NCBI GenBank assembly: GCA_016778085.1
Contig: JADHQF010000002.1
Span: 1 to 37,860, forward strand
DNA length: 37,860 nt
Source of the DNA: Luminiphilus sp.
GTDB lineage: Bacteria > Pseudomonadota > Gammaproteobacteria > Pseudomonadales > Halieaceae
Reading direction: 5' to 3'
The position numbers were made by a program, and so were the translations under genes. Within the stretch, counting starts at the first letter, position 1. Every line of letters starts with the position of its first letter. Of this stretch, positions 1,155-35,655 are shown piece after piece. The notes beneath the pieces were generated by a model. It was not told the origin of the DNA. It saw only the letters and a program-made list of their open reading frames with translations, and made no database searches.

Positions 1155-2612
1155 TCAGCTTTTGATCTGCGCCTTGATGGTCTTATCGCTGGTCTTGCCA
1201 TAAGGCGGCAGCATGCCACCCAGCTTGGCCACATTGAACTTCAGCGTCTGGCTGTAGATCGACTTCGCGTGGCTGAAGGTTTTGAAGCCTTCGATGCCAT
1301 GGTAGGAGCCCATACCAGACGGGCCGACGCCGCCGAAGGGCATGTCTTCCTGTGCGATGTGGAAGATCACATCGTTGATGCACACACCGCCTGAGGTGGT
1401 GCGATGCAAGAACGCCTCCTCTTCACCTTTGTCCGTGCCAAAGTAGTAGGCAGCCAGCGGCCGCGGATTGGCGTTGATGTAGTCGATGGTCTCATCGAAG
1501 TTTTTGTATGTGCGGATCGGCAGCAGCGGCCCAAAAATTTCCTCTTCCATACAGAGCGCGTCACGCTCAGGCGATACGATCAGCGTGGGCGGAATCTTGC
1601 CGGTTCCGTTACTGAAGTCCTCATTCGCGGGGTTTAGCGGGATGATGCGGCAACCGCGTTGCTCGGCATCCTCAAGGTAGCCGCTCAGGCGCTTGTGGTG
1701 ACGTTCGTTGATCACCGAAGTGTACTGCTCATTGTCGCGCAGGCTTGCATACATCTCGTTGACAGCTTTGGTCGCAAGGCTAATCACTTCCTCCAGCTGC
1801 TCCTCGGGCACCAGCAGGTAGTCAGGTGCGAGGCAGATCTGGCCGGCGTTGAGCGTCTTGCCCAGCATCACGCGCTGCATTGCCTGCTCGAGATCCGCTG
1901 AGCGGGAAATTACCACCGGCGACTTGCCGCCGAGTTCTAGTGTCACCGGCACAAGATTACGTGCAGCGGCGGTAAGTATATGGCGGGCGATGTTGGTCGC
2001 GCCTGTGAAGATCATGTGGTCAAAGGGCAGGGCTGAGAACGCCTGACCGACTTCGGGGCCGCCAGAGAAGGTGGTGACCTCAGTGGGGTCAAAGGCCTCG
2101 GCGACGATTTCCTCGATTACCTTGGAAGTCTCCGGAGTGAATTCGGAGGGCTTGATCATGGCCCGGTTGCCCGCAGCGAGGATGCCAGCCAGCGGCTGGA
2201 AAACCATCGCCACCGGGAAGTTCCAAGGTGCGACGATACCGACCACGCCCTTGGGCTGATATTGAATATGTGAGCGGCCGCCGAGCAGCCCCAACGGGAA
2301 GGTAGAGGGGCGCTTTTCGTCCTTCATCCACTTCTTGAGGTGCTTGCGGCAGTGCTTCATGGAGCCGATAGAGGCGGCCACATCGGTCATCAGATTGACC
2401 TGGTCGGGTCGGCACACGAAGTCCTTGTTGATGGCCTCGCTAATGCGATCCGCGTGGCGGACCAGCACGTCGATCGCGCGATTCAGGCGGTCGATGCGAG
2501 TCTCTGCAGAGACAAAGCCTTCCTGCAGGTAGCTTTCGCGCTGCGCCTGTAGCGCATCCTGCATTTTGATTTCAACGTCGGGGCTGACTGCGACTTGCTG
2601 CGGGGCATTCAT
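1155..2612 (-). CDS. Aldehyde dehydrogenase, coniferyl-aldehyde-dehydrogenase-like
   Basis: NAD(P)+-dependent oxidation of an aldehyde to a carboxylic acid in the cytoplasm. The 485-residue protein is full length for the short, class-3-like branch that includes coniferyl aldehyde dehydrogenase. The oxyanion Asn is in APWNFP (about residue 131), the general-base Glu in LELGGKSP (about 226), the nucleophile Cys in NAGQICLAPDY (about 260), and the EEIFGPLLPI signature follows. The gene is last in the minus-strand operon, but the 143-base gap before it holds a possible promoter of its own (-10 TATACT, complement of 2645-2650). The terminator at 1080-1107 follows. The substrate is not readable; context suggests an aldehyde made by the upstream oxygenase, amine oxidase or aldolase steps. 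The family call is firm; the coniferyl label is only nearest resemblance. Confidence 0.9.
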   Translation of the reverse strand: MNAPQQVAVSPDVEIKMQDALQAQRESYLQEGFVSAETRIDRLNRAIDVLVRHADRISEAINKDFVCRPDQVNLMTDVAASIGSMKHCRKHLKKWMKDEKRPSTFPLGLLGGRSHIQYQPKGVVGIVAPWNFPVAMVFQPLAGILAAGNRAMIKPSEFTPETSKVIEEIVAEAFDPTEVTTFSGGPEVGQAFSALPFDHMIFTGATNIARHILTAAARNLVPVTLELGGKSPVVISRSADLEQAMQRVMLGKTLNAGQICLAPDYLLVPEEQLEEVISLATKAVNEMYASLRDNEQYTSVINERHHKRLSGYLEDAEQRGCRIIPLNPANEDFSNGTGKIPPTLIVSPERDALCMEEEIFGPLLPIRTYKNFDETIDYINANPRPLAAYYFGTDKGEEEAFLHRTTSGGVCINDVIFHIAQEDMPFGGVGPSGMGSYHGIEGFKTFSHAKSIYSQTLKFNVAKLGGMLPPYGKTSDKTIKAQIKS

Positions 2613-2755: not shown

Positions 2756-4171
2756 TTAACGAGGGTCGAGCTGGTCGCACAGCCAGCCCACGGCTTTGGC
2801 CGGCACTCCCCCGCGGTATCGGTCCAGAAGCCATTCCTCGGCGCCAAACGCCATCATTGTGGCGCTGAGACCGAGTCTGGGAATCGGTTCGGGCTCCCAG
2901 CGTTTCAGTTCTTCTATTGACCGTCGAGTCACCCACGGCATGAGGGTTCGATCGGTGTCCTGACCCGTGAGCAGTTCAGCCAGCGTTTGGCCGAACAGAA
3001 AGCTGGCGCCAACGCCTTCACCGACGTAGCCACCCGCGGTGGCGATACCGGAGTAATCGTCGTGGATGACATGCGGGTGCCAGCCGCGGGGCACGCCCAC
3101 GCTGCCGCCCCAGTTGTGGGTAAAGCGCACGCCGGCAAGCTGAGGAAAAAGACTGAGGGCGATCTTCTCTCGCCGGAGCCCGGTGGCCGGTGAGTCTCCA
3201 AGCCCGTGTTGTGGCACGCCCCCGGGCTGATAGTGGCCCCGCGCACCGATCACCAATCGATTGTCGGCTGTCCGCTGCAGGTAAGTGGCCGCACGGGTGC
3301 AGTCCGCGAAGGCCTCGTTGTTGGCAAAGCCCAGGTCTGACCATTGAGCGTCACTTAAGGGTTCGGTGGCGACCATGCCGGTCTGCACCGGAATCAGTCG
3401 CCGGTGCAGCGGGTTACCGGCCTCGGAATAGCCCTCGGTGGCGATCACAATCTGCCCAGCCTGAATGCTACCGCAGTCGCAACGAATTACGCCCGGTTGA
3501 ATCACGTGAGCGCGGGTATGTTCAAACACCCGCACGCCAAGCGACTTGACCACCCGGCCCAGCCCTGTCACCAGTTTGGCTGGCTGAATACGGGCCACGT
3601 GCGGGGTGAATACCGCGCCACCCGGGTTCGCAACGTGAATGCGATCGCTGAGCTCGGTCGCGGTGAGCCAGCGGTAGTCGTCTTCTCCAAAACCCAGGCC
3701 CCTAAAACTAGCGAGCATTTTTTGTGCTCGCGCGACCTGTGCGTCATGCCGTGCTGCGGCCATCACGCATCCACCGTGGTGAAAATCGCAGTCGATGCCC
3801 TCTCTAGCAAAGATCTCGCCTGCGCGTGAGACCAGTTGTGTCAGTTGCTGCCGCGTCTCTATGGGCAGTGTTCCGCTGTCGTCAGTAAATGCATCGCAGC
3901 CTTCTAGCGCCCCCATTAACCAGCCACCGTTGCGTCCGGAGGCGCCGTGCCCGATGTGCTTGGCTTCGACCAGCGCAATGTCGAGGTCGGGTTGCATCTG
4001 CTTCAAAAAATAGGCGGTCCAGAGCCCCGTGTAGCCTCCGCCCATGATCGCGATGTCAGCGGTGGTGTCCGTCTCAAGGGGGGGCGCGACTGCGGTACGC
4101 TCGAGGCCATCCCACCACAATGAGAGGCTGGCCACGGGTTGAGCGTCTGGATGGGGGTTCGCGGCTTCCAT
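2756..4171 (-). CDS. FAD-dependent oxidoreductase, DAO/OrdL (PuuB-like) family
   Basis: The 471-residue flavoprotein has the N-terminal dinucleotide-binding motif DIAIMGGGYTGLWTA (about 39-53), the acidic ribose ligand in LVEA (about 69) and the FAD-contact segment GASGRNGGWLMG. It closes with a second glycine-rich strand, GIATAGGYVGEGVGASFLFG. This is the D-amino-acid-oxidase fold used by gamma-glutamylputrescine oxidase-like enzymes, which oxidise C-N bonds and release aldehyde, amine and H2O2. It lies 42 bases after the Rieske oxygenase gene and before the aldehyde dehydrogenase, consistent with amine to aldehyde to acid. The true substrate is not known; other DAO-family reactions (sarcosine- or glycine-oxidase-like) remain possible. 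Confidence 0.85.
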   Translation of the reverse strand: MEAANPHPDAQPVASLSLWWDGLERTAVAPPLETDTTADIAIMGGGYTGLWTAYFLKQMQPDLDIALVEAKHIGHGASGRNGGWLMGALEGCDAFTDDSGTLPIETRQQLTQLVSRAGEIFAREGIDCDFHHGGCVMAAARHDAQVARAQKMLASFRGLGFGEDDYRWLTATELSDRIHVANPGGAVFTPHVARIQPAKLVTGLGRVVKSLGVRVFEHTRAHVIQPGVIRCDCGSIQAGQIVIATEGYSEAGNPLHRRLIPVQTGMVATEPLSDAQWSDLGFANNEAFADCTRAATYLQRTADNRLVIGARGHYQPGGVPQHGLGDSPATGLRREKIALSLFPQLAGVRFTHNWGGSVGVPRGWHPHVIHDDYSGIATAGGYVGEGVGASFLFGQTLAELLTGQDTDRTLMPWVTRRSIEELKRWEPEPIPRLGLSATMMAFGAEEWLLDRYRGGVPAKAVGWLCDQLDPR

Positions 4172-4213: not shown

Positions 4214-5566
4214 TCAGGCATTCAATCGGCGTTCCAATTCGACATGGAAATGCCGCAGCCGTTGTTCCTGTTCACCCCAGAGTTGTCCTTTGAAGGCCTT
4301 GCTGCGCATGCCTTCTTGCACTGACGGCAGGAACGCGGCGTCCTGACTCAATACCAAACCCAGTCCGGGGTCCTCGTCGATCAGAAAATTCTCGGTCTCG
4401 GGCCGTACGCTGCCGGTGACATCTGTACCCTCTGGCAACCCCATCCAAGCGGGCGGACAGTAGTCGGGGTCTTCCACCGGGAACATGAGTGTCATGGTGT
4501 CGTACCAAAACCGCTCGGGGTCGGTGTCATGGGGAATGAAGCGCATCAAAAAGATGGCCTCGGGGTGGCAGCCAATTTGCACGTTGGGAAAGATGCCCGT
4601 CGCCCAGCTGTCCGAGAGTTGGCCGTCAGAAAATCGCTCGTAGCCCAAGCCCAGACGATCAGAGCGCTCCCGTTTGGCTTGTTGAATCGCTGCGCGCACA
4701 TCGGCGGCCGTGCCGGTAAAACCCCCGGGATCCACGCCGGCTTCCTGCAACATCCACTGCAGACCCTCGTTGACCGTGGTCTGGTCCGCCTGCCGCGGGC
4801 TGGGTTGTCCCAGCGGCACAATCATGCGGCTGGCGCCGTTGGGGTAGCAGTCGTATTGCACATTCAGATCGCCCATCACGCCGCGCGTTTCCGGATGGAT
4901 GGCGTGTAGGTGATAGCTTTCGTAAAACGCTTCGACGCCGACTTTCCAGTTCGAGCCCCACTCGCTTCGCACATGGCGCACCACCCGCATCTGGTCGATC
5001 TGGTAGTTCTCTAGGTAGCCCTCTGGGAGACCAATAGACTCCTGAAGCGGGGGTGGATTGTCGGCCATGCTGACGAAGATCAGCCCCGCGCACTCTTCGC
5101 AGGCTACTGGTGTGAGTCCGGGGCGGTGACAGATCACGGGGTCCTGAAAGGTTTCCTCATCGGTGATGGTGCGCAGTTCCCCGTTGTTGCGAAAACTCCA
5201 ACTGTGGAAAGGGCAGACAAAGACTTTCTTGTTGCCACGCTCCTCGGTGAGTAGCCGAGCACCGCGGTGTGGACACACGTTGTAAAAGGCTTTTACGCCT
5301 TCCTCGGTTTGGGTGACGATGATCGATTCACTGCGGACCCGGAATAAAAAATAGTCGCCCGGCGCCTGCAGGTCAGTGCTGACCCCGGCAATCAGCCAGC
5401 TCCCGGTCCAGACCTTATCCCACTCGCGTTGCATGTGCTCCGCGCTGAAATAGCCGTCTTTGCCGTAAATCTCGGCGCCATTATCGATGCTGGGTTGCTT
5501 GGCCTCGAGACTTTCAGCAGGGGCATTGGGATTAATGACGGCCACGGGAATGATCTTGCTGTTCAT
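4214..5566 (-). CDS. Rieske non-heme iron oxygenase, alpha subunit
   Basis: 450 residues from the ATG at 5566, which has GGAGAG in front; the longer track start (5659) would overlap the upstream gene. The Rieske 2Fe-2S motif is CPHRGARLL...CPFHSW (Cys98, His100, Cys118, His121). The mononuclear iron site is ESYHLHAIH (Glu216, His219, His224), matching the (D/E)xxHxxxxH pattern. The residue bridging the two metal centres is Glu rather than the usual Asp of arene dioxygenases. Electron-transfer partners (reductase, ferredoxin) are not in the window. No clear beta subunit is adjacent, although the operon's first gene has the same NTF2 fold as beta subunits. Expected role: hydroxylation or demethylation of an aromatic, alicyclic or quaternary-amine compound. 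The family is certain; the substrate is unknown. Confidence 0.92.
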   Translation of the reverse strand: MNSKIIPVAVINPNAPAESLEAKQPSIDNGAEIYGKDGYFSAEHMQREWDKVWTGSWLIAGVSTDLQAPGDYFLFRVRSESIIVTQTEEGVKAFYNVCPHRGARLLTEERGNKKVFVCPFHSWSFRNNGELRTITDEETFQDPVICHRPGLTPVACEECAGLIFVSMADNPPPLQESIGLPEGYLENYQIDQMRVVRHVRSEWGSNWKVGVEAFYESYHLHAIHPETRGVMGDLNVQYDCYPNGASRMIVPLGQPSPRQADQTTVNEGLQWMLQEAGVDPGGFTGTAADVRAAIQQAKRERSDRLGLGYERFSDGQLSDSWATGIFPNVQIGCHPEAIFLMRFIPHDTDPERFWYDTMTLMFPVEDPDYCPPAWMGLPEGTDVTGSVRPETENFLIDEDPGLGLVLSQDAAFLPSVQEGMRSKAFKGQLWGEQEQRLRHFHVELERRLNA

Positions 5567-5586
5567 GGTTCTCTCTCCGTTAGTGC

Positions 5587-6009
5587 CTAGGGTCCAGCAT
5601 CCCCGCCATCCAGTGCGGGGTGTAAACGAAATACCGGCAGTGTGATGTCTTCTGACCACGCTGCAAAGTCCACCTTGACCGACAGCCCGACCGCTAAGGC
5701 GTCGGGGTCAGCGTCGATGATCTGGCTCATCATCCGCGGACCTTCGGCGAGGTCGATCAGGGCGATCACATAAGGCGCTTCAAAATCGGCAGAAACAGCC
5801 CGGCGGACCACCGTGTAACTGGCGATGGTGCCAGCGCCGCTGGCGTCTTCCCACGCCAGCTGATCACTCTGGCAGGCATCGCAGTGGGTGCGCGGATAAA
5901 ACACAACATGACCACAGTGCTGGCAGCGCTGTAGCACCAGTTTGCCCGCTGCACAGGCATCATAAAAAGGTTGCTCGGTCGGCGTGGGGCGCGGTACAGG
6001 CTTAGCCAC
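5587..6009 (-). CDS. DUF35 zinc-ribbon/OB-fold acyl-CoA-binding protein
   Basis: I place the start at GTG 6009, giving 140 residues (MAKPVPRPTPTEQ...). GGAGG lies just upstream and the start is two bases after the stop of the thiolase-like gene, as expected for coupled translation; the track ATG at 6075 would overlap that gene by 64 bases. Four cysteines (C29xxC32...C43xxC46) form a rubredoxin-like zinc ribbon, followed by an OB-fold (GTIASYTVVRRAV, PYVIALIDLAEGPRMMSQI). DUF35 proteins bind thiolase-fold partners and are required for activity of Ltp2-type aldolases. Its place directly after such a gene supports a heteromeric complex. Confidence 0.9.
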   Translation of the reverse strand: MAKPVPRPTPTEQPFYDACAAGKLVLQRCQHCGHVVFYPRTHCDACQSDQLAWEDASGAGTIASYTVVRRAVSADFEAPYVIALIDLAEGPRMMSQIIDADPDALAVGLSVKVDFAAWSEDITLPVFRLHPALDGGDAGP

Positions 6010-6011
6010 GG

Positions 6012-7184
6012 TCAGTCCTCCGCGCCCAGAATGATAGTGGCGTGGCTCGACATAATGCCCCCTTGTGCATGGCACAGTGCCGTGCGCATGTTAGGCAGTT
6101 GCCGTTCACCGGCGTTACCGCGCATCTGGATCATCGCCTCGGTGAGGCCGAACATCGCACCGGGGTTGCCGGGATGACAATAAGACAACATGCCCCCGTG
6201 GGTATTCATGGGTTTGCTGCCGCCGGGTTTACTGATGCCGCTGGCCAGCCAGGCGCCGCCTTCACCCTTGTCACAAAAGCCGAGATCTTCGATTTGAATG
6301 AGCAGGGCAGGGGTAAAGCAGTCGTAGAGTTGCAAAAGATCGATATCGTCGGGTGTGAGCCCCGCCTCGGTGTAAGCGGCGCGACCCGATTGCGCCGCAG
6401 CCGACGTCGTCAGATTTTTCGCTTGGCTGATGTGTTCGTAGGCGTGCCCTTCACCATAGCCGAGTAGGGTGACGGGCTTATGAGGCCCGTTTTTGGCCCG
6501 GTCTTTACGGGTGATCACGACCGCCGCTCCGCCGTCGGAAACCAGCGAGCAATCCAAGACCTTGAGTGGATCAGCGATCGCACGGGAGTTCATGACGTCC
6601 TCTACGCTGATGGGGTCGCGTTTCTGCGCCTTGGGATGCTGGCTGGCCCAGGCCCGGCAAGACACCGCGGCCTCTGCAAATTGGGCTTCGGTGGTGCCAA
6701 ACTGGTCCATGTGGGCGCGGGCGATCAGTGCGTAGTAAGCGGGCACGGTGGGCCCATAGGGTTGTTCGTAATGGGGGTGTCCGGAGCTCGACTGCACCAC
6801 CATGGCCTGCTCACGGCTCATGAAGCTCCGCAGGCTATCGGCCATAGCGACTACGATCGTATCTGCCATGCCAGCCTGGATGGCGGCCGCGGCCATGTTG
6901 AGCGCCATAAAGGTGGTGCCACCGCCGGTATTCACGGTGACACAGTGTCGTGGCTGCCAGCCGATGTACTCGGCCACCGCCTCGGCGTGATACATGATGG
7001 GTTCGGCAAAGGCGTTACAGGTAATCAGCCCGTCAACCTCTCCGAGCGTCAGACCGGCGTCCTGTATGGCATCTAGGGTGACCTGCACACAGAGCTCACG
7101 GGGACTTTTATCCGGTACGATGCCCACGGCACTCTCGGACATGCCGATCAGCGCGAACTCACCTCCCAGTCCCGAGACACTCAT
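6012..7184 (-). CDS. SCP2/Ltp2-like thiolase-fold protein, probable retro-aldolase
   Basis: 390 residues of the thiolase fold, SCP2/lipid-transfer branch. Markers are DGLITCNAF, LVSDGGAAVVITRKD, LQLYDCFTPAL (about 285-294), NTHGGMLSYCHPGNPG (about 327-342) and CHAQGG (about 371). Where true thiolases carry the nucleophilic Cys (CSxGSTA-type motif), this protein reads VNTGGGTTFMAL, without Cys. Loss of that residue together with an adjacent DUF35 gene is the signature of Ltp2-type aldolases, which cleave a 3-hydroxyacyl-CoA into a ketone or aldehyde and a shorter acyl-CoA; tyrosines such as those in YDCFT serve catalysis there. A hydratase encoded just upstream would supply the 3-hydroxyacyl-CoA. 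Thiolase-type annotation is the alternative. The reaction is inferred from motif and context. Confidence 0.85.
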   Translation of the reverse strand: MSVSGLGGEFALIGMSESAVGIVPDKSPRELCVQVTLDAIQDAGLTLGEVDGLITCNAFAEPIMYHAEAVAEYIGWQPRHCVTVNTGGGTTFMALNMAAAAIQAGMADTIVVAMADSLRSFMSREQAMVVQSSSGHPHYEQPYGPTVPAYYALIARAHMDQFGTTEAQFAEAAVSCRAWASQHPKAQKRDPISVEDVMNSRAIADPLKVLDCSLVSDGGAAVVITRKDRAKNGPHKPVTLLGYGEGHAYEHISQAKNLTTSAAAQSGRAAYTEAGLTPDDIDLLQLYDCFTPALLIQIEDLGFCDKGEGGAWLASGISKPGGSKPMNTHGGMLSYCHPGNPGAMFGLTEAMIQMRGNAGERQLPNMRTALCHAQGGIMSSHATIILGAED

Positions 7185-7189
7185 GACTG

Positions 7190-7603
7190 TCAGCTCGCCA
7201 AGGTTAATGTTGCAGTGATCACGCCGGGCGTGAGCACCTCATCGCGTTCGTTCTTCACAAACACCTCCAGCGTCACCTCGCCAGTCGCCTCGTCATACGC
7301 TGTCACGGTGCCGCCCGACGTCACTGTCTCACCGACGTACGCCGCGATGCGGTTGGAGTACTCAATACCAGTGATCATGCCTGCGTCTCCCAGCCACTCA
7401 TCGACCACTTGATGCAGCCAGTCGCCCATCAGTGGGCCGGCCACGACAAGGCCGGGGTAGCCCTCGACCTCGGTGGCGTAGGGCATATCAAAGTGGATAC
7501 GGTGCCCGTTCCAGAGCGAGGCGTTGTAAAGCATCTGCTGCACCTCGTCGCAGTAGTGCTGACGCTGGGGAATCGCCATGCCGACGGTTGGCGCAGGGCT
7601 CAT
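7190..7603 (-). CDS. MaoC/HTD2-like hotdog hydratase, C-terminal-type subunit
   Basis: 137 residues of single hotdog fold. The segment LWNGHRIHFDMPYA (about 30-43) corresponds to the catalytic GDxNPIHxD region of R-specific enoyl-CoA hydratases in its HTD2/mesaconyl-hydratase variant, where Asn takes the Asp position and His37 is kept. PGLVVAGPLMGDWL follows, as in this family. The start overlaps the stop of the MaoC_N gene by four bases, so the two subunits are probably made in equal amounts and form one enzyme. It should add water across the 2,3 double bond of an acyl-CoA. Whether the Asn-containing site is fully active is not readable. Confidence 0.85.
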   Translation of the reverse strand: MSPAPTVGMAIPQRQHYCDEVQQMLYNASLWNGHRIHFDMPYATEVEGYPGLVVAGPLMGDWLHQVVDEWLGDAGMITGIEYSNRIAAYVGETVTSGGTVTAYDEATGEVTLEVFVKNERDEVLTPGVITATLTLAS

Positions 7604-8055
7604 CGCAGAATCCTCGTGGTTTTTTCGGTAACCACCAGTTCATCGTCATCGCCCCGCACCTCCATCAACACCTCGTAGAAGATGAGCGGTCCGCTGCGGC
7701 CGGCCTTTTCATAAATATTGGTCAAGGTGCGGGTTGCGGTGAGCCAATCGCCGGGTTTAATCGGCTTGTGATAGGTGATGTCAAGGCCGCCTGCCATCGC
7801 TTTCTCCAGCGGGAACTTGGGCAGCAACGAATCTATAGACACGCCATCCGGCGAGAGCTCGCTCAGCGGCACGACGTCCCAGAATAAATGCAGATGAAAG
7901 AGCGGCGGTGCCACGTCACCATCAAGATATTTTGCCTGACGGTTGTTGGTCGCGACCGCGTACTTGCGTATATCCCGCCGCGTTACGATCTCCCGTCGGG
8001 GTTCGCTCTGTTTACCAATGTGCGACAGCACATCTTCCGAGAGCAGTCCGCTCAT
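7600..8055 (-). CDS. MaoC N-terminal-domain (FAS1-like dehydratase) protein
   Basis: 151 residues matching the N-terminal hotdog half of two-domain MaoC hydratases, with DVAPPLFHLHLFWDVVP, the G-L-D-I-T-Y-H strand and PIKPGDWLTATRTLTNIYEKAGRSGPLIF. In one-gene homologues of about 280 residues this half lacks catalytic residues and binds the acyl-CoA tail. Here it is a separate gene overlapping the catalytic partner by four bases (ATGA), and also overlapping the stop of the acyl-CoA synthetase by four. The same split arrangement is known for heteromeric steroid side-chain hydratases of actinobacteria (ChsH1/ChsH2). Confidence 0.87.
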   Translation of the reverse strand: MSGLLSEDVLSHIGKQSEPRREIVTRRDIRKYAVATNNRQAKYLDGDVAPPLFHLHLFWDVVPLSELSPDGVSIDSLLPKFPLEKAMAGGLDITYHKPIKPGDWLTATRTLTNIYEKAGRSGPLIFYEVLMEVRGDDDELVVTEKTTRILR

Positions 8056-9608
8056 ACCTGACGCGTCTCATCCTGCCAGTACGGATCGCGCAGATCCCGT
8101 TTCAGGATCTTGCCGGTGGGGGCCTTGGGCAGGGCGTCGACGAAGTCGACCGACTTGGGCTTTTGATAGGAGGCCAGATGCTTGCTCGCCTCGGCAATGA
8201 TCTCTTCCTCGGTCGCAGTCTGCCCGGGTTTCAACACGACTACAGCCTTCACCGCCTCGCCCCAGGTGTCGTCGGGAACGCCAAACACGGCGGATTCCAA
8301 CACGGCAGGATGCTGGTGAATCGCTGCCTCGACCTGGGTGCTGTAAATGTTCTCGCCGCCGGAGATGATCATGTCCTTGGCGCGATCAACAATGAATACG
8401 TAGCCTTCTTCGTCCCAGGTGGCGATATCGCCAGTCCACATCCAATCCCCGCGTATGGTCTGTTCCGTGAGGTCCGGTCGGCGCCAGTACCCCAGCATGT
8501 TGGCTTCGGAGCGAACCGCGATCTCGCCCGCGGTCTGTCCATCTCTCGGTACGGGTTCGCCTTCAGGGTTAACGACACGGATCTCCGAAACAAAGCCCTC
8601 TCGGCCGCAGGAACCAAGCCGCTCGGGATGGTCACCGGTCACGGCGCGTTGGTGATCCTCCTGTGACAGGAAGGTCATCGTCATCCCCTCAGTCTGACCA
8701 TAGCCTTGAATCATAGTGCAGGGGAAAGCTTGCAGCGCAGCTTCCACTACCGAACGTGGCATGGGGCCGCCACCATATTGAAAGTTCCGCAGGCTGCTGA
8801 GGTCGTAGTCTTCAAACCCCTCGACCGCCATCATCCAGTTGATCATGGTGGTAATGCCCAGAAAGGCCGAAACGCGTTCTTGCTGGATCACGTCCAGTGC
8901 CAATTTGGCGTCAAAGTTGATCAATACCACAGGGCAGCCGTGGGCCATGTAGTTCATAGCGAGTGCGACTGGAATATGGAACATCTGTCCGGTGAGCATG
9001 TACACGTCGGTAGGTACGATCCGCTCTGCAATGGATTGATTCAGCATGCCCATATAGAGCGAGTGGTGAGAGTGCAGGGCGCCTTTGGACTCGCCTGTTG
9101 TGCCGCCGGTGTAGAGAATGAGCACAGGATCATCCCCCGTGACCCCGGTAGAGGCTGCGGGTTCCGCATCGCTCGACGCAGCGATCAGTTGCTCGTAGTC
9201 GCAGTTAGCGGCAGTGGTGAAAACCAGTGTTGCGGTGGTATTCGTGGCCTGGGCGAGACTACCTGTTAGCTCGGCATACTCCTCGGAGCCAATCAGAACG
9301 GCAGGCTCGCCGTCCTCAAGAATCCGCGCCATCTCGGGCTCACTCAGCCGCCAGTTGAGCGGCTGGGCAATCAGGCCGCAGCGCGCGCAGGCATAGAACA
9401 CTTCCATGTACTGGATGCAATTCTTGGAGAGGATGGCGACGCGATCACCCTTGTTGAGCTTGAGCTCATCGCAGAACGCGTTGGCGAGCCGGCGGACGCG
9501 CTCGTCGAGGGCGCCAAAGGTCATCCGCCGGTCATTGGGGATATCGATCAGTGCCTCGCGCTCAGGGTCGAGCAGCGCGGTTTTGGCAGGGATGCGACCC
9601 AGATTCAT
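8052..9608 (-). CDS. Acyl-CoA synthetase (AMP-forming, FadD-like)
   Basis: Activates a carboxylic acid to its CoA thioester using ATP. The 518-residue protein has the full ANL-family set: P-loop YTGGTTGESKG, the A5 motif GYGQTEG, MWTGDIATWDEEGYVFIVDRAKDMIISGGENIYSTQVE (A7-A8 hinge), and the catalytic C-terminal Lys in PKAPTGKILKRDLR. Length is normal for single-domain members. It is the second gene of the operon; its stop overlaps the next start by four bases. It presumably loads the substrate acid that the MaoC and Ltp2/DUF35 proteins then process. The chain or ring specificity cannot be read from the sequence. Confidence 0.93.
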   Translation of the reverse strand: MNLGRIPAKTALLDPEREALIDIPNDRRMTFGALDERVRRLANAFCDELKLNKGDRVAILSKNCIQYMEVFYACARCGLIAQPLNWRLSEPEMARILEDGEPAVLIGSEEYAELTGSLAQATNTTATLVFTTAANCDYEQLIAASSDAEPAASTGVTGDDPVLILYTGGTTGESKGALHSHHSLYMGMLNQSIAERIVPTDVYMLTGQMFHIPVALAMNYMAHGCPVVLINFDAKLALDVIQQERVSAFLGITTMINWMMAVEGFEDYDLSSLRNFQYGGGPMPRSVVEAALQAFPCTMIQGYGQTEGMTMTFLSQEDHQRAVTGDHPERLGSCGREGFVSEIRVVNPEGEPVPRDGQTAGEIAVRSEANMLGYWRRPDLTEQTIRGDWMWTGDIATWDEEGYVFIVDRAKDMIISGGENIYSTQVEAAIHQHPAVLESAVFGVPDDTWGEAVKAVVVLKPGQTATEEEIIAEASKHLASYQKPKSVDFVDALPKAPTGKILKRDLRDPYWQDETRQV

Positions 9609-9617
9609 GGCAGAGAT

Positions 9618-10031
9618 TCAGTAGGCGCTGTCGAGATCAATGTGACGTCGGGTGATTTTCCACTCGCCATCGATTTGCCCGACCTGATCGCGGTACACCC
9701 CGGTGGTCAACAGCTTGGTCTCGGCGTTCTCGGTCGCGAACAGAGTCAGGTATGAGGTGACCGCCAGCGACTCTCCGGAAGCATCGAACATCACGTTGGT
9801 GATGTCATGTCGACGCACATCGGTCTGACTCGCTTTGGCGCCTCGGTAGAGCTCCATGATGCTGTCACGACCCTCAAATGGCCCGACCATGTCGCCCCCG
9901 GCGATCTGCATGCTCATCACGGCATCGGGCGCAAAACTGGCGGCGAGGTCATCGAGCTGACCCTCGTCATAGTAATAGGCCATTCGGTTCAGTAGTTCAG
10001 AGATGGCAAAGCGCTCTTCGGCTGACGGCAT
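9618..10031 (-). CDS. SnoaL/NTF2-like protein, first gene of the catabolic operon
   Basis: 137 residues with the SnoaL_4/NTF2-like cone fold: SAEERFAISELLNRMAYYYDEGQLDDLAASFAPDAVM, then FEGRDSIMELYRG, DVRRHDITNVMFD and a final strand GEWKITRRHIDLD. Members include steroid-isomerase-like enzymes, cyclases and beta subunits of ring-hydroxylating dioxygenases. AGAGGA precedes the ATG. It is the promoter-proximal gene, nine bases before the acyl-CoA synthetase. It could act as an isomerase, dehydratase or lyase on the substrate, or as a distant partner of the Rieske alpha subunit; the sequence does not decide. Confidence 0.8.
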   Translation of the reverse strand: MPSAEERFAISELLNRMAYYYDEGQLDDLAASFAPDAVMSMQIAGGDMVGPFEGRDSIMELYRGAKASQTDVRRHDITNVMFDASGESLAVTSYLTLFATENAETKLLTTGVYRDQVGQIDGEWKITRRHIDLDSAY

Positions 10032-31716: not shown

Positions 31717-32238
31717 TTGTTTATGAACTTGCGTTATCAACAGCAAGACTGCGACCTAACCCTCCGGGAAGGTGTCGCCGAATACCGCGCATATCTTGAT
31801 GCCATCGGCAGAAAGGCCATGGTCGATCGCCCAGATTCTCGTTTAATCCTTGAGCACGATGCGACGCATGTGATGTTTGGCATGGACACGTCGTTGGAGC
31901 AGGAGGCCGGTCTCGATACCTGGCTAATTTTTGGATGCCAATACCAGTGGCGATACCTGCGCGGTTATGGCCAGCTCCCCGAGATTAAGGCCTTGTACAA
32001 GGCGCTCATCAAGGAAAACGGCTGGTGGTTGTTTCCCAAGCTTTACTGGAAATGCCTGGGGTTAAAGTGGCGGATTATCAGGCGTACCCGACGCATGACC
32101 CATAAATGGCCCTTTCAGTTCCCCGAGGAATGGCTGGATCAGTCTGTGACCGCGTTGAGAGCGCAGCACGGCATCAGCATTCTGACGGAGGAGGAGCGCG
32201 CCACAGGTGACCTGCTGGAGTGGAGCGGACAGTACTGA
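31717..32238 (+). CDS. Coq4-like ubiquinone biosynthesis protein
   Basis: 173 residues; a TTG start at 31717 has GAGGG six bases upstream, or ATG 31723. The central HDATHVMFGMDTSLEQEA fits the Coq4 metal motif HDxxH(x)11E. Coq4 supports coenzyme Q head-group modification and is soluble or membrane-associated. The remainder (YQWRYLRGYGQLPEIKALYKALIKENGWWLF) is aromatic-rich. No other ubi/coq genes are near. The motif is a good match; the role is inferred. Confidence 0.72.
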   Translation: MFMNLRYQQQDCDLTLREGVAEYRAYLDAIGRKAMVDRPDSRLILEHDATHVMFGMDTSLEQEAGLDTWLIFGCQYQWRYLRGYGQLPEIKALYKALIKENGWWLFPKLYWKCLGLKWRIIRRTRRMTHKWPFQFPEEWLDQSVTALRAQHGISILTEEERATGDLLEWSGQY

Positions 32239-32399
32239 GCAATCGGCAGCGAGTCGCTCACCAGAGCGGCGTGAAGCTCGTCAGCGACATCGCGTTACCC
32301 CAATTGAAAAATAGGCTCGACAAGCATAGCGTAGGCACAGTCAAGCACAGCAAAGAATCACGACAAGCAAGCACAACAAAGAAAAGGGGGGAATTCAGC

Positions 32400-33287
32400 A
32401 TGTCGATCAGATCATTCATTGTTGCGGGCATTTTTTTCGCGCTAGCAGGGTGCCAAGCCGACTCGGGTAAACAGGATGCCGCGGTCATCGCGGCTGCGAA
32501 AGCGGGCTACGACGCCTTTGCAACGGGCGACATGGCAGCATGGGCGGCCACGCAGGCACCGGATGCACAATGGGAGATGCCCAAGGGTTTTCCCTATGGC
32601 GGCAATTACGTGGGTCCTAAGCAAGTGATCGATGAGGTCTTCATGCCCATCGGTGAGCTCTGGCCCGACTTCAAGGTCGAGCCCACGGCGTTCCATGCTG
32701 CGGGCAACGTGGTCTTTATCGAAACTAAAATGACGGCGGGTGGTGTCACCAGTGACTCCATTCATAAAGCGGTCATCGAGAATGGCAAGTACGCCGCGTT
32801 TCAAGTCTACGACGACGCCGGCTTCATGATGGCCCACTCCACCGCCGGCGCGAGCATCGGTAAGCAATATTTTGATAACGGCTCATCCAAGCCCTTGTTG
32901 CAAGGCAGTGGCGCAAACGGACAGGTCTGGATGGATTATATCGCCGCACATAACGCGAGGGATTTTGGGGCCATCGCCGCGATGAACACCGAGGATTTCC
33001 GGGGGATCGCAGCCCACGGTGAGGTCGTGGAGGGCAACGCCGCCCACACTGACTTTTTGCAAAACTGGGTCGCCACTGAGAATCCCCGTTGGCAGGTGTG
33101 GTGGGTCATTGCCAATGACGGAGAGAACGCCGACGGCGTCATGGAGGAATGGCTGGCCACCGGCAACGTGGTCACGACCACCGGGCCTGACGGCACCGAG
33201 CGCAGGGCCTACGAGACAATCGATGTGTTGCTCGAGAACGGCAAAGTCAAAATGCTTAATGTGGCCTCTCAAACCATGCCTGAATAG
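32400..33287 (+). CDS. Lipoprotein with two NTF2/SnoaL-like domains
   Basis: 295 residues from ATG 32400 with GGGGGGA upstream; the track start at 32220 adds 60 residues before the signal. MSIRSFIVAGIFFALAGC is a lipoprotein signal. The mature part has a first domain (AAKAGYDAFATGDMAAWAATQAPDAQWEMPKGFPYGGNYVG) and a second (VWMDYIAAHNARDFGAIAAMNTEDFRGIAAHG...). Both have the SnoaL/polyketide-cyclase-like layout, so this is an internal duplication. Expected location: periplasmic face of the membrane. Substrate unknown. Confidence 0.78.
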   Translation: MSIRSFIVAGIFFALAGCQADSGKQDAAVIAAAKAGYDAFATGDMAAWAATQAPDAQWEMPKGFPYGGNYVGPKQVIDEVFMPIGELWPDFKVEPTAFHAAGNVVFIETKMTAGGVTSDSIHKAVIENGKYAAFQVYDDAGFMMAHSTAGASIGKQYFDNGSSKPLLQGSGANGQVWMDYIAAHNARDFGAIAAMNTEDFRGIAAHGEVVEGNAAHTDFLQNWVATENPRWQVWWVIANDGENADGVMEEWLATGNVVTTTGPDGTERRAYETIDVLLENGKVKMLNVASQTMPE

Positions 33288-34044: not shown

Positions 34045-35655
34045 TTGCTAGCTACGTTAGATTGGTGGGTGATCGGGACCTATCTGCTTCTGTTGCTCGC
34101 ACTCGGCGGGTTTCTCTCGAGGCGCCAGCAGTCAGGTGCGGATTATTTCGTAGCTGGCCGCAGCGAGCGGCCTTTCAGTATCGCGCTGTCAGTGCTCGCC
34201 ACCCAATGTTCTACTAACAGTATTCTCGGTGCCCCAGCCTTTGTTGCCTTCGCAGCCGGAGGGGGGCTGGTTTGGTTGCAGTATGAGCTGGCGGTCCCGC
34301 TGGCAATGATCTTCACCATGATATTTGTGATCCCGATGTTCCAGCGGCTTCAGCTGGTGTCGGTCTATGAATATCTGGAGCGACGCTTTGATCTGAAAAC
34401 CCGACTGTTGTTGAGTGGCGTGTTTCAGGTACTGAGATTACTGGCGGCGGCCGTCACGATTTATGGCGTCTCGGCGATGATTGATCTCATCACCGGTATC
34501 GGTTTTTTGGCTTCTGTGCTGATATTCGGCGCTTTTACGGTGCTGTATGACGTGCTTGGGGGCATCCGGGCGGTGATCTGGAGCGACGTATTGCAAATGT
34601 CGGTGCTGGTGAGTGTGCTGGGGTACCTGCTCTGGCTGCTCACAGGGGATGCTGGTGGCCTCAATGCCATGTTGGGTAGTGTCTCGGGAGACAGGCTGGC
34701 GGCGCTGGACTTTGGTCATCACGGTCTGGGAGACGGTCACGACTTCGCCTTCTGGCCAATGCTGATCGGGGGCTTTTTTCTCTACGTCTCCTATTACGGC
34801 TGTGATCAAAGTCAGGTGCAGAGGCAACTGTGCGCGAAAAACCAAAGAGATGGTCAGACGATCCTGCTGCTGAATGGTTTGCTGCGCTTTCCGCTGGTGC
34901 TGCTCTACTGCCTGATAGGGGTTGGTATAGCGGTCTACGCGGATACCCATACCGAATTTGTGACCTTGCTGCCTGACACTGACGGCCAGCCCAACTACAA
35001 CATGGCCTTGCCGCTGCTGTTCCTTATGGAGCTGCCCGAAGGCTTAAAGGGGATAGCCATCGTGGGGGTACTGGCAGCCGCGATGTCGTCGCTGGATTCG
35101 GTGATCAACAGCCTGTCCGCGGTGACAATGGAGGATTTCATCAAGCGCTGCGGCTGGGTCTCGATGGGCTCGGACCGTGTGGAGATACTGTGGAGCAAGG
35201 CGCTCACGGGGGTGTGGGGCGTGTTGGCTATCGTGCTCGCTTTTTGGGTTGATGATATTGCCAGTACGGTATTGGTGGCGGTCAATAAATTGGGGTCTTT
35301 GATCAACGGGCCCCTGCTGGCGGTTTTTGTGATGGGCTTGCTGACCCACAGGGTAACAGGGCGGGGCGCGAGGATCGGCTTTGCAGCAGGATTTATCAGT
35401 AATCTTTTACTGTGGTTGGGTGCGCCAGGGGTGTCCTGGCTGTGGTGGAACGTCAGCGGGTTTTTGATCGCGGTCGCTATCGGAGTGCTCAGCAGTCGGC
35501 GCGAAGCGGAGTGGGTCGCCGCCTCCGATACTATCTGGACGCCAGCATTTTTCATTGGTCAGGGCTTTGAGCGGACCTGGCTGCTGGGTTACCTCACGCT
35601 CGCGGGTGGGACGTGCGGATTTTTGCTGGTGTTGGCTGTGTTTGGCCTGCGGTGA
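34045..35655 (+). CDS. Sodium:solute symporter (SSS/SLC5 family)
   Basis: 536 residues; the start codon is TTG (MLATLDWWVIGTYLLLLLALGGFLSRRQQS) with GGGAGAG five bases upstream. About 13 transmembrane segments. Family signs: GADYFVAGRSERPFSIALSVLATQCSTNSILGAPAFV (TM1-TM2 region), YDVLGGIRAVIWSDVLQM, YVSYYGCDQSQVQRQLCAKN and AIVGVLAAAMSSLDSVINSLSAVTMEDF. It imports an organic solute with Na+. The substrate cannot be read; the adjacent rhodanese might hint at a sulfur compound, but weakly. Confidence 0.9.
   Translation: MLATLDWWVIGTYLLLLLALGGFLSRRQQSGADYFVAGRSERPFSIALSVLATQCSTNSILGAPAFVAFAAGGGLVWLQYELAVPLAMIFTMIFVIPMFQRLQLVSVYEYLERRFDLKTRLLLSGVFQVLRLLAAAVTIYGVSAMIDLITGIGFLASVLIFGAFTVLYDVLGGIRAVIWSDVLQMSVLVSVLGYLLWLLTGDAGGLNAMLGSVSGDRLAALDFGHHGLGDGHDFAFWPMLIGGFFLYVSYYGCDQSQVQRQLCAKNQRDGQTILLLNGLLRFPLVLLYCLIGVGIAVYADTHTEFVTLLPDTDGQPNYNMALPLLFLMELPEGLKGIAIVGVLAAAMSSLDSVINSLSAVTMEDFIKRCGWVSMGSDRVEILWSKALTGVWGVLAIVLAFWVDDIASTVLVAVNKLGSLINGPLLAVFVMGLLTHRVTGRGARIGFAAGFISNLLLWLGAPGVSWLWWNVSGFLIAVAIGVLSSRREAEWVAASDTIWTPAFFIGQGFERTWLLGYLTLAGGTCGFLLVLAVFGLR

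Follow-up and report, generated by a model that had tools for sequence, protein, structure and literature searches.

The stretch of DNA analyzed here (the window, 37,860 nt) is part of a 1.7-Mb, 72% complete Luminiphilus genome and contains a compact operon of seven genes on the minus strand. In the order of transcription, these encode a SnoaL-like protein, an acyl-coenzyme A (CoA) synthetase (ACS), the two halves of a split MaoC-type hydratase (MaoA and MaoB), a thiolase-fold protein, a DUF35 protein, and the alpha subunit of a Rieske oxygenase (Table 1). The gaps between successive genes are 9, -4, -4, 5, 2, and 20 bp, the negative values being ATGA overlaps between ACS and MaoA and between MaoA and MaoB. 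Judged from its genes, the operon is fairly likely to encode a CoA-dependent module for carbon-carbon bond cleavage, in which a hydratase and a retro-aldolase are coupled to the Rieske oxygenase. A first-pass annotation of the sequence had described the six genes from ACS to the Rieske gene as a tight operon, with an ATGA overlap in the split MaoC; all six are present as described and belong to a conserved block, but the SnoaL-like gene, conserved with them, was left out. A promoter scan of the operon region found no promoter.

Table 1. Genes of the operon and those that follow it in the window
Feature	Coordinates	Strand	Matches
SnoaL/NTF2-like protein, 137 aa; first operon gene, 9 bp upstream of ACS	9618-10031	-	SnoaL_4, 76 bits
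Acyl-CoA synthetase (ACS), 518 aa	8052-9608	-	AMP-binding, 262 bits
MaoA, N-terminal half of split MaoC/HTD2-type hydratase	7600-8055	-	FAS1_DH_region, 62 bits
MaoB, catalytic half of split hydratase	7190-7603	-	C-terminal half of 8HUC/8KHG, 46 bits
Thiolase-fold protein, probable retro-aldolase	6012-7184	-	4U4E, 308 bits; CtSal 9MYR, 207; TcLtp2 6OK1, 173
DUF35 protein (OB-fold and zinc ribbon), GTG start	5587-6009	-	OB_ChsH2_C, 76 bits; zf-ChsH2, 43 bits
Rieske oxygenase alpha subunit, 450 aa	4214-5566	-	Rieske and Ring_hydroxyl_A above cutoff
DAO-type flavoprotein, outside the conserved block, 42 bp after the Rieske gene	2756-4171	-	DAO, 168 bits
Aldehyde dehydrogenase (ALDH), 143 bp after DAO	1155-2612	-	Aldedh, 287 bits

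Conservation of the operon

Gene order was examined at 47 loci, a few of which are copies of one genome. All seven genes are colinear on one strand at 40 of these, so that the order, on whose conservation the first-pass annotation had let its reading depend, is kept. Three of the other seven loci are cut by contig ends and four lack the Rieske gene; one of these four (L058) also stops at a contig end, which leaves L038, L079, and L080. An ortholog of the Rieske protein was found in 50 of 140 Halieaceae genomes, representing 11 of the 28 genera of the family. Within the genus, 26 of the 57 genomes carry MaoB. Samples of the class and phylum yielded almost nothing further. The thiolase-fold protein of the window is 82 to 97% identical to its nearest named relatives, in Luminiphilus and other Halieaceae. 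Its orthologs are 57 to 97% identical and the next homologs about 45% or below, with the exception of one 54% relative without the operon. Given the recurring order and this gap in identity, the association of the seven genes is more than chance, and the linkage to a Rieske oxygenase suggested earlier extends across genera. The full cluster is also carried by a cultured host, Pseudohalioglobus sediminis NY5.

A few further genomes (L040, L041, and L136) have the thiolase/DUF35 pair alone. For example, in one genome (G310; L167/L136) a thiolase-fold relative (54%) and a DUF35 gene (37%) lie right after apparent TRAP transporter permease genes, with the rest of the operon missing. ACS is 67 to 98% identical across 44 loci and reaches no curated NCBIfam cutoff. 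A 62% identical ACS is encoded on plasmid pRB98 of Rhodococcus oxybenzonivorans (L198, 7138-18834), beside a Baeyer-Villiger-like enzyme, two hydrolases, a thiolase/DUF35 pair, and acyl-CoA dehydrogenases; the substrate of this cluster is not named in the open-licence literature searched.

Active sites of the encoded proteins

Every operon ortholog of the thiolase-fold protein carries Gly at the position of the thiolase nucleophile (NTGGGTT, residues 85 to 91); the true thiolases aligned with them show the nucleophilic Cys and an HDCF motif. The protein had been called "Cys-less," which is correct for the nucleophile, but not for the other catalytic Cys, which is found as C289 of Y287-D288-C289-F290 (YDCF), a motif invariant among the operon orthologs. 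All of them also possess a His (H337) in LS(Y/H)(C/S)H or a close variant. A Gly at the nucleophile position together with the Tyr and Cys of YDC(Y/F) is the residue pattern of Sal: in CtSal, Gly replaces the nucleophile Cys, and Tyr302 and Cys304 of YDCY are essential, whereas TcLtp2 uses Tyr294 and Tyr344 (PMC12329534). In the thiolase tree, which has several long branches, CtSal among them, the operon proteins form one clade (support, 100/99) apart from both CtSal and TcLtp2. As judged from its active-site residues the operon thiolase is Sal-like, and by clade it is a member of neither Sal nor Ltp2, so the Ltp2-type aldolase proposed at first was not borne out. The fold matches of its structural model are, in order, 4U4E, CtSal, TcLtp2, and TbSLP. 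Because the nucleophile position is Gly, because the Tyr/Cys pair is the one essential in CtSal, and because the protein is constantly paired with a hydratase and a DUF35 protein, retro-aldol cleavage is its likely activity and the reading best supported. The zinc site of the DUF35 partner is of the C4 type, each of its ligands (C29, C32, C43, and C46) being at least 98% conserved over the 47 loci, as are the MaoB and Rieske residues listed below.

MaoA matches the N-terminal half and MaoB the C-terminal half of itaconyl-CoA hydratase (8KHG and 8HUC). The catalytic motif is absent from MaoA and present in MaoB as N32-G-H34-R35-I36-H37-F-D39, in which N32, H34, R35, I36, H37, and D39 are conserved. 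The double hot-dog halves and the NGHRIH(Y/F)D motif assign the pair to the HTD2/itaconyl-CoA hydratase type, to which it is closer than to the ChsH1/ChsH2 type named in the first-pass annotation. One half of ChsH1/ChsH2 is likewise motif-less (PMC11321319), so a similar division of labor may operate between the motif-less MaoA and the motif-bearing MaoB.

The Rieske protein contains both the CXH...CXXH cluster and the 2-His-1-carboxylate site of an alpha subunit: C98, H100, C118, H121, E216, H219, H224, and D409 are conserved, D409 being assigned as an iron ligand by position only. Its best match in the Protein Data Bank (PDB), CntA (6Y8J; 98 bits), is confined to residues 35 to 227. Plasmid relatives of the Rieske protein (46 to 56%) sit in other catabolic clusters. 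The SnoaL-like protein scores 28.2 bits against Ring_hydroxyl_B (PF00866; cutoff, 27), and its model, with a predicted local distance difference test score (pLDDT) of 93.6, resembles Rieske beta subunits about as closely as it does cystatin-like/NTF2 folds. The gene is retained at the three loci without a Rieske gene, which argues against a pure beta-subunit role; the protein is possibly dehydratase/isomerase-like or a Rieske beta-like subunit. Elsewhere in the window, a 355-aa protein (32220-33287) near a sodium:solute symporter (34045-35655) combines a SnoaL_2 domain with a second, weak SnoaL-like stretch.

Proposed reactions, gene neighborhood, and alternatives

In the proposed sequence of steps, ACS would activate a bulky carboxylic acid, in line with the probably bulky substrate envisaged earlier. 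MaoA, as the substrate-holding half, and MaoB, as the His-bearing half of a presumed heterodimer, would add water to the alpha,beta-enoyl-CoA, giving a beta-hydroxyacyl-CoA. In a complex with DUF35 as its holding partner, the thiolase-fold protein would then release acetyl- or propionyl-CoA and an aldehyde or ketone by retro-aldol cleavage, with Tyr287 acting as the base on the beta-hydroxyl, Cys289 as the acid on the enolate, and His337 possibly assisting. The Rieske oxygenase would hydroxylate either the starting compound or the cleavage product. A hydratase and a retro-aldolase were also the first-pass interpretation of these two pairs of genes and appear to be the best one.

The genes around the block bear on the substrate. 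In most genera of Halieaceae other than Luminiphilus, the seven genes are part of a cluster of about 16, with an APH-family kinase, a second ACS, a TetR protein, an alpha/beta hydrolase, a luciferase-like monooxygenase, another TetR protein, and a short-chain dehydrogenase/reductase (SDR) upstream, and a TonB receptor, a glutathione S-transferase (GST), and a PQQ-like protein downstream. In a second type of Luminiphilus locus, the block is preceded by a Zn-dehydrogenase, a cytochrome P450, and a glyoxalase-like protein and followed by DUF3604, two GSTs, and an SDR. Monooxygenases, a hydrolase, a TonB receptor, a GST, and a PQQ-like protein as neighbors fit the catabolism of a hydrophobic compound. 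L079 has a Baeyer-Villiger-type enzyme beside the block, which, together with the surrounding monooxygenases, hydrolase, and TonB receptor, points to a cyclic or terpenoid-like compound. The genes downstream of the block at L038 (acylating acetaldehyde dehydrogenase and HMGL-like aldolase) and at L080 (cyclase, SDR, and amidohydrolase) would fit aromatic catabolism. The natural substrate may be a cyclic acid, possibly terpenoid-like or aromatic.

The DAO flavoprotein and ALDH, which had been counted as parts of the module, were rejected as members on grounds of conservation. The former is seen in only a subset of Luminiphilus loci and was not seen in the other genera examined. ALDH is present in all 15 related genomes, always elsewhere, with none of the six other core genes beside it at the seven loci examined, and adjoins the block only in Luminiphilus. 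Within this genus there may be a looser link, given that ALDH is missing (E value, 1e-220) from five of the six genomes searched that lack the operon. A comparison of the M48/LemA flanks for empty sites gave just 54 to 57% relatives, with neither ALDH nor the operon alongside. A strong terminator-like hairpin (1077-1110) separates ALDH from the gene at 635-1063. Another contig of the same genome bin (C47; L160) carries a Rieske gene 94% identical to that of the window, with the DUF35 end, DAO, and ALDH. This copy is probably not a paralog but the corresponding locus of another, closely related strain or species that was binned together with the first.

Several observations weigh against the proposed cleavage module. 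The operon run contains no acyl-CoA dehydrogenase as a source of the enoyl-CoA and no Rieske reductase. MaoB keeps the His of the canonical MaoC dyad, but Asn32 occupies the usual position of the catalytic Asp in at least 98% of the orthologs. The model of the thiolase-fold protein has a pLDDT of 79 and is low near residues 331 to 339, and its best PDB match, 4U4E, has the motif YDSF and no named activity. Finally, the Rieske-less blocks at L038, L079, and L080 suggest that the Rieske step may be separable.

A different use of the same genes is conceivable from ipfABDEF of sphingomonads, where a CoA ligase, a Rieske dioxygenase, and a retro-aldolase release propionyl-CoA and 4-isobutylcatechol, and where disruption of the thiolase gene ipfD by an insertion leaves the cells unable to grow on ibuprofen (PMC9195938). 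By analogy, the Rieske protein, with the SnoaL-like protein as its beta subunit, would dioxygenate the ring of an aryl-acyl-CoA at the side-chain carbon to give a beta-hydroxy thioester directly; thiolase/DUF35 would split off acyl-CoA to leave a catechol, and MaoA/MaoB would serve some other step. The operon carries the same functional kit, the ipf system shows that such a combination of enzyme kinds is not unprecedented, and the SnoaL-like protein does score just over the Ring_hydroxyl_B cutoff. However, the conserved MaoC pair would be left without a role, the SnoaL-like gene persists where the Rieske gene is missing, and no extradiol dioxygenase was recognized among the annotated neighbor genes, so this use of the operon is considered unlikely. 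A Sulfitobacter plasmid also runs a reductase, Rieske alpha and beta subunits, an AMP ligase, and a thiolase together, but this thiolase is only 33% identical, with close relatives of the YDDY type, and the Rieske protein is 27% identical over half its length. The Sulfitobacter locus (L205; NZ_CP139708.1, 3496-11801) further includes SDRs and a cyclase and is flanked by TRAP transporter genes; many plasmids of marine alphaproteobacteria, as well as Burkholderiales, carry close relatives of its YDDY-group thiolase-fold protein.

Somewhat less likely again is that the thiolase-fold protein is not an aldolase but decarboxylates or condenses a CoA thioester or does no more than bind one, in which case the operon would be an ordinary beta-oxidation or biosynthetic set. 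The nearest solved structure, with no activity to its name, would allow this, as would TbSLP, which shares YDCF and slowly and weakly decarboxylates malonyl-CoA (PMC12329534), and the retention of the thiolase-like H337, which is Gln in CtSal and Tyr in TcLtp2. The missing nucleophile and the constant pairing with a hydratase and DUF35 nevertheless suit an aldolase better, and the neighboring genes are catabolic.

Steroid or bile acid side-chain degradation, with the operon as the Halieaceae counterpart of Shy/Sal or ChsH1-ChsH2/Ltp2, is improbable: the hydratase-aldolase logic and the Tyr/Cys pair of CtSal are shared, cholesterol supports the growth of a Halieaceae isolate from a sponge (PMC5790920), and KstD-like flavoproteins are common in the family, but the clade of the thiolase-fold protein, the zinc site, and the MaoC type all differ, no recognizable steroid-ring genes adjoin the block, and KstD-like matches show no positive association with the operon (27 of 50 genomes with it, leaving 23 without a match, versus 60 of 90 without it; Fisher P = 0.15; E value, 1e-100), KstD being a generic marker and many of the genomes incomplete.

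Taken further, the cleavage module could stand at the center of a hitherto undescribed route by which marine Halieaceae break down a cyclic acid of wide occurrence. It would unite a third, as yet unnamed class of thiolase-fold retro-aldolase (Tyr-Cys, with His for Gln/Tyr), a hydratase of the HTD2 type that is split in two and has a His/Asn dyad, and the Rieske oxygenase, joined in the larger versions by monooxygenase and uptake genes in a cluster of 16. This broader proposal is tentative, its chances being put slightly short of even; no description of the operon was found in the open-licence literature. DUF35-partnered hydratase-aldolase complexes have been characterized almost only on steroids, and a conserved marine version that has an active-site signature of its own and is not linked to steroid genes would, if confirmed, broaden their substrates. 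It would also supply a testable gene set for an uncharacterized marine compound, with P. sediminis NY5 as the cultured host.

Relation to known systems

The observation behind the first-pass annotation is thus confirmed and its interpretation supported in part. It had regarded hydratase-aldolase systems as actinobacterial and a gammaproteobacterial version as new, but the proteobacterial Shy/Sal of Comamonas testosteroni (9MYR) is already published (PMC11321319 and PMC12329534). Shy/Sal also comprises a MaoC hydratase and a thiolase-fold aldolase with DUF35, and shares the Gly at the nucleophile position and the Tyr and Cys of YDCY/YDCF. It differs in that Shy joins DUF35 and a single MaoC in a fusion, with a C3H1 rather than a C4 zinc site, whereas the operon has a separate DUF35 gene and a split hydratase of another MaoC type; Sal has Gln at position 352 where the operon protein has His; and the linkage there is to steroid genes, not to a Rieske enzyme. 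The actinobacterial ChsH1-ChsH2/Ltp2 system (6OK1, the Ltp2-DUF35 complex) likewise has a two-subunit MaoC with a motif-less partner and an aldolase with a C4 DUF35, but DUF35 is fused to ChsH2, and Ltp2 is characterized by YDHF and Tyr344 instead of YDCF and His.

Other systems resemble single parts of the operon. The ipfABDEF genes, likened here by description and not by sequence, bring together a CoA ligase, a Rieske oxygenase, and a retro-aldolase thiolase, but have no MaoC pair as described and encode a dioxygenase system, compared with an alpha subunit and an uncertain SnoaL-like protein in the operon. The HTD2-like itaconyl-CoA hydratase is a single chain, its two halves corresponding to two genes in the operon. 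The bridging Glu (E216) of the Rieske protein is shared with CntA and other Group V Rieske enzymes, but the Cys-X-X-Cys pair beside the iron site of some members of that group is absent, the sequence YESYHLHAIH containing no Cys. The kinds of enzymes, including the proteobacterial Shy/Sal, are therefore already known; what is new is the separate clade, the type of hydratase, and the conserved linkage to a Rieske oxygenase.

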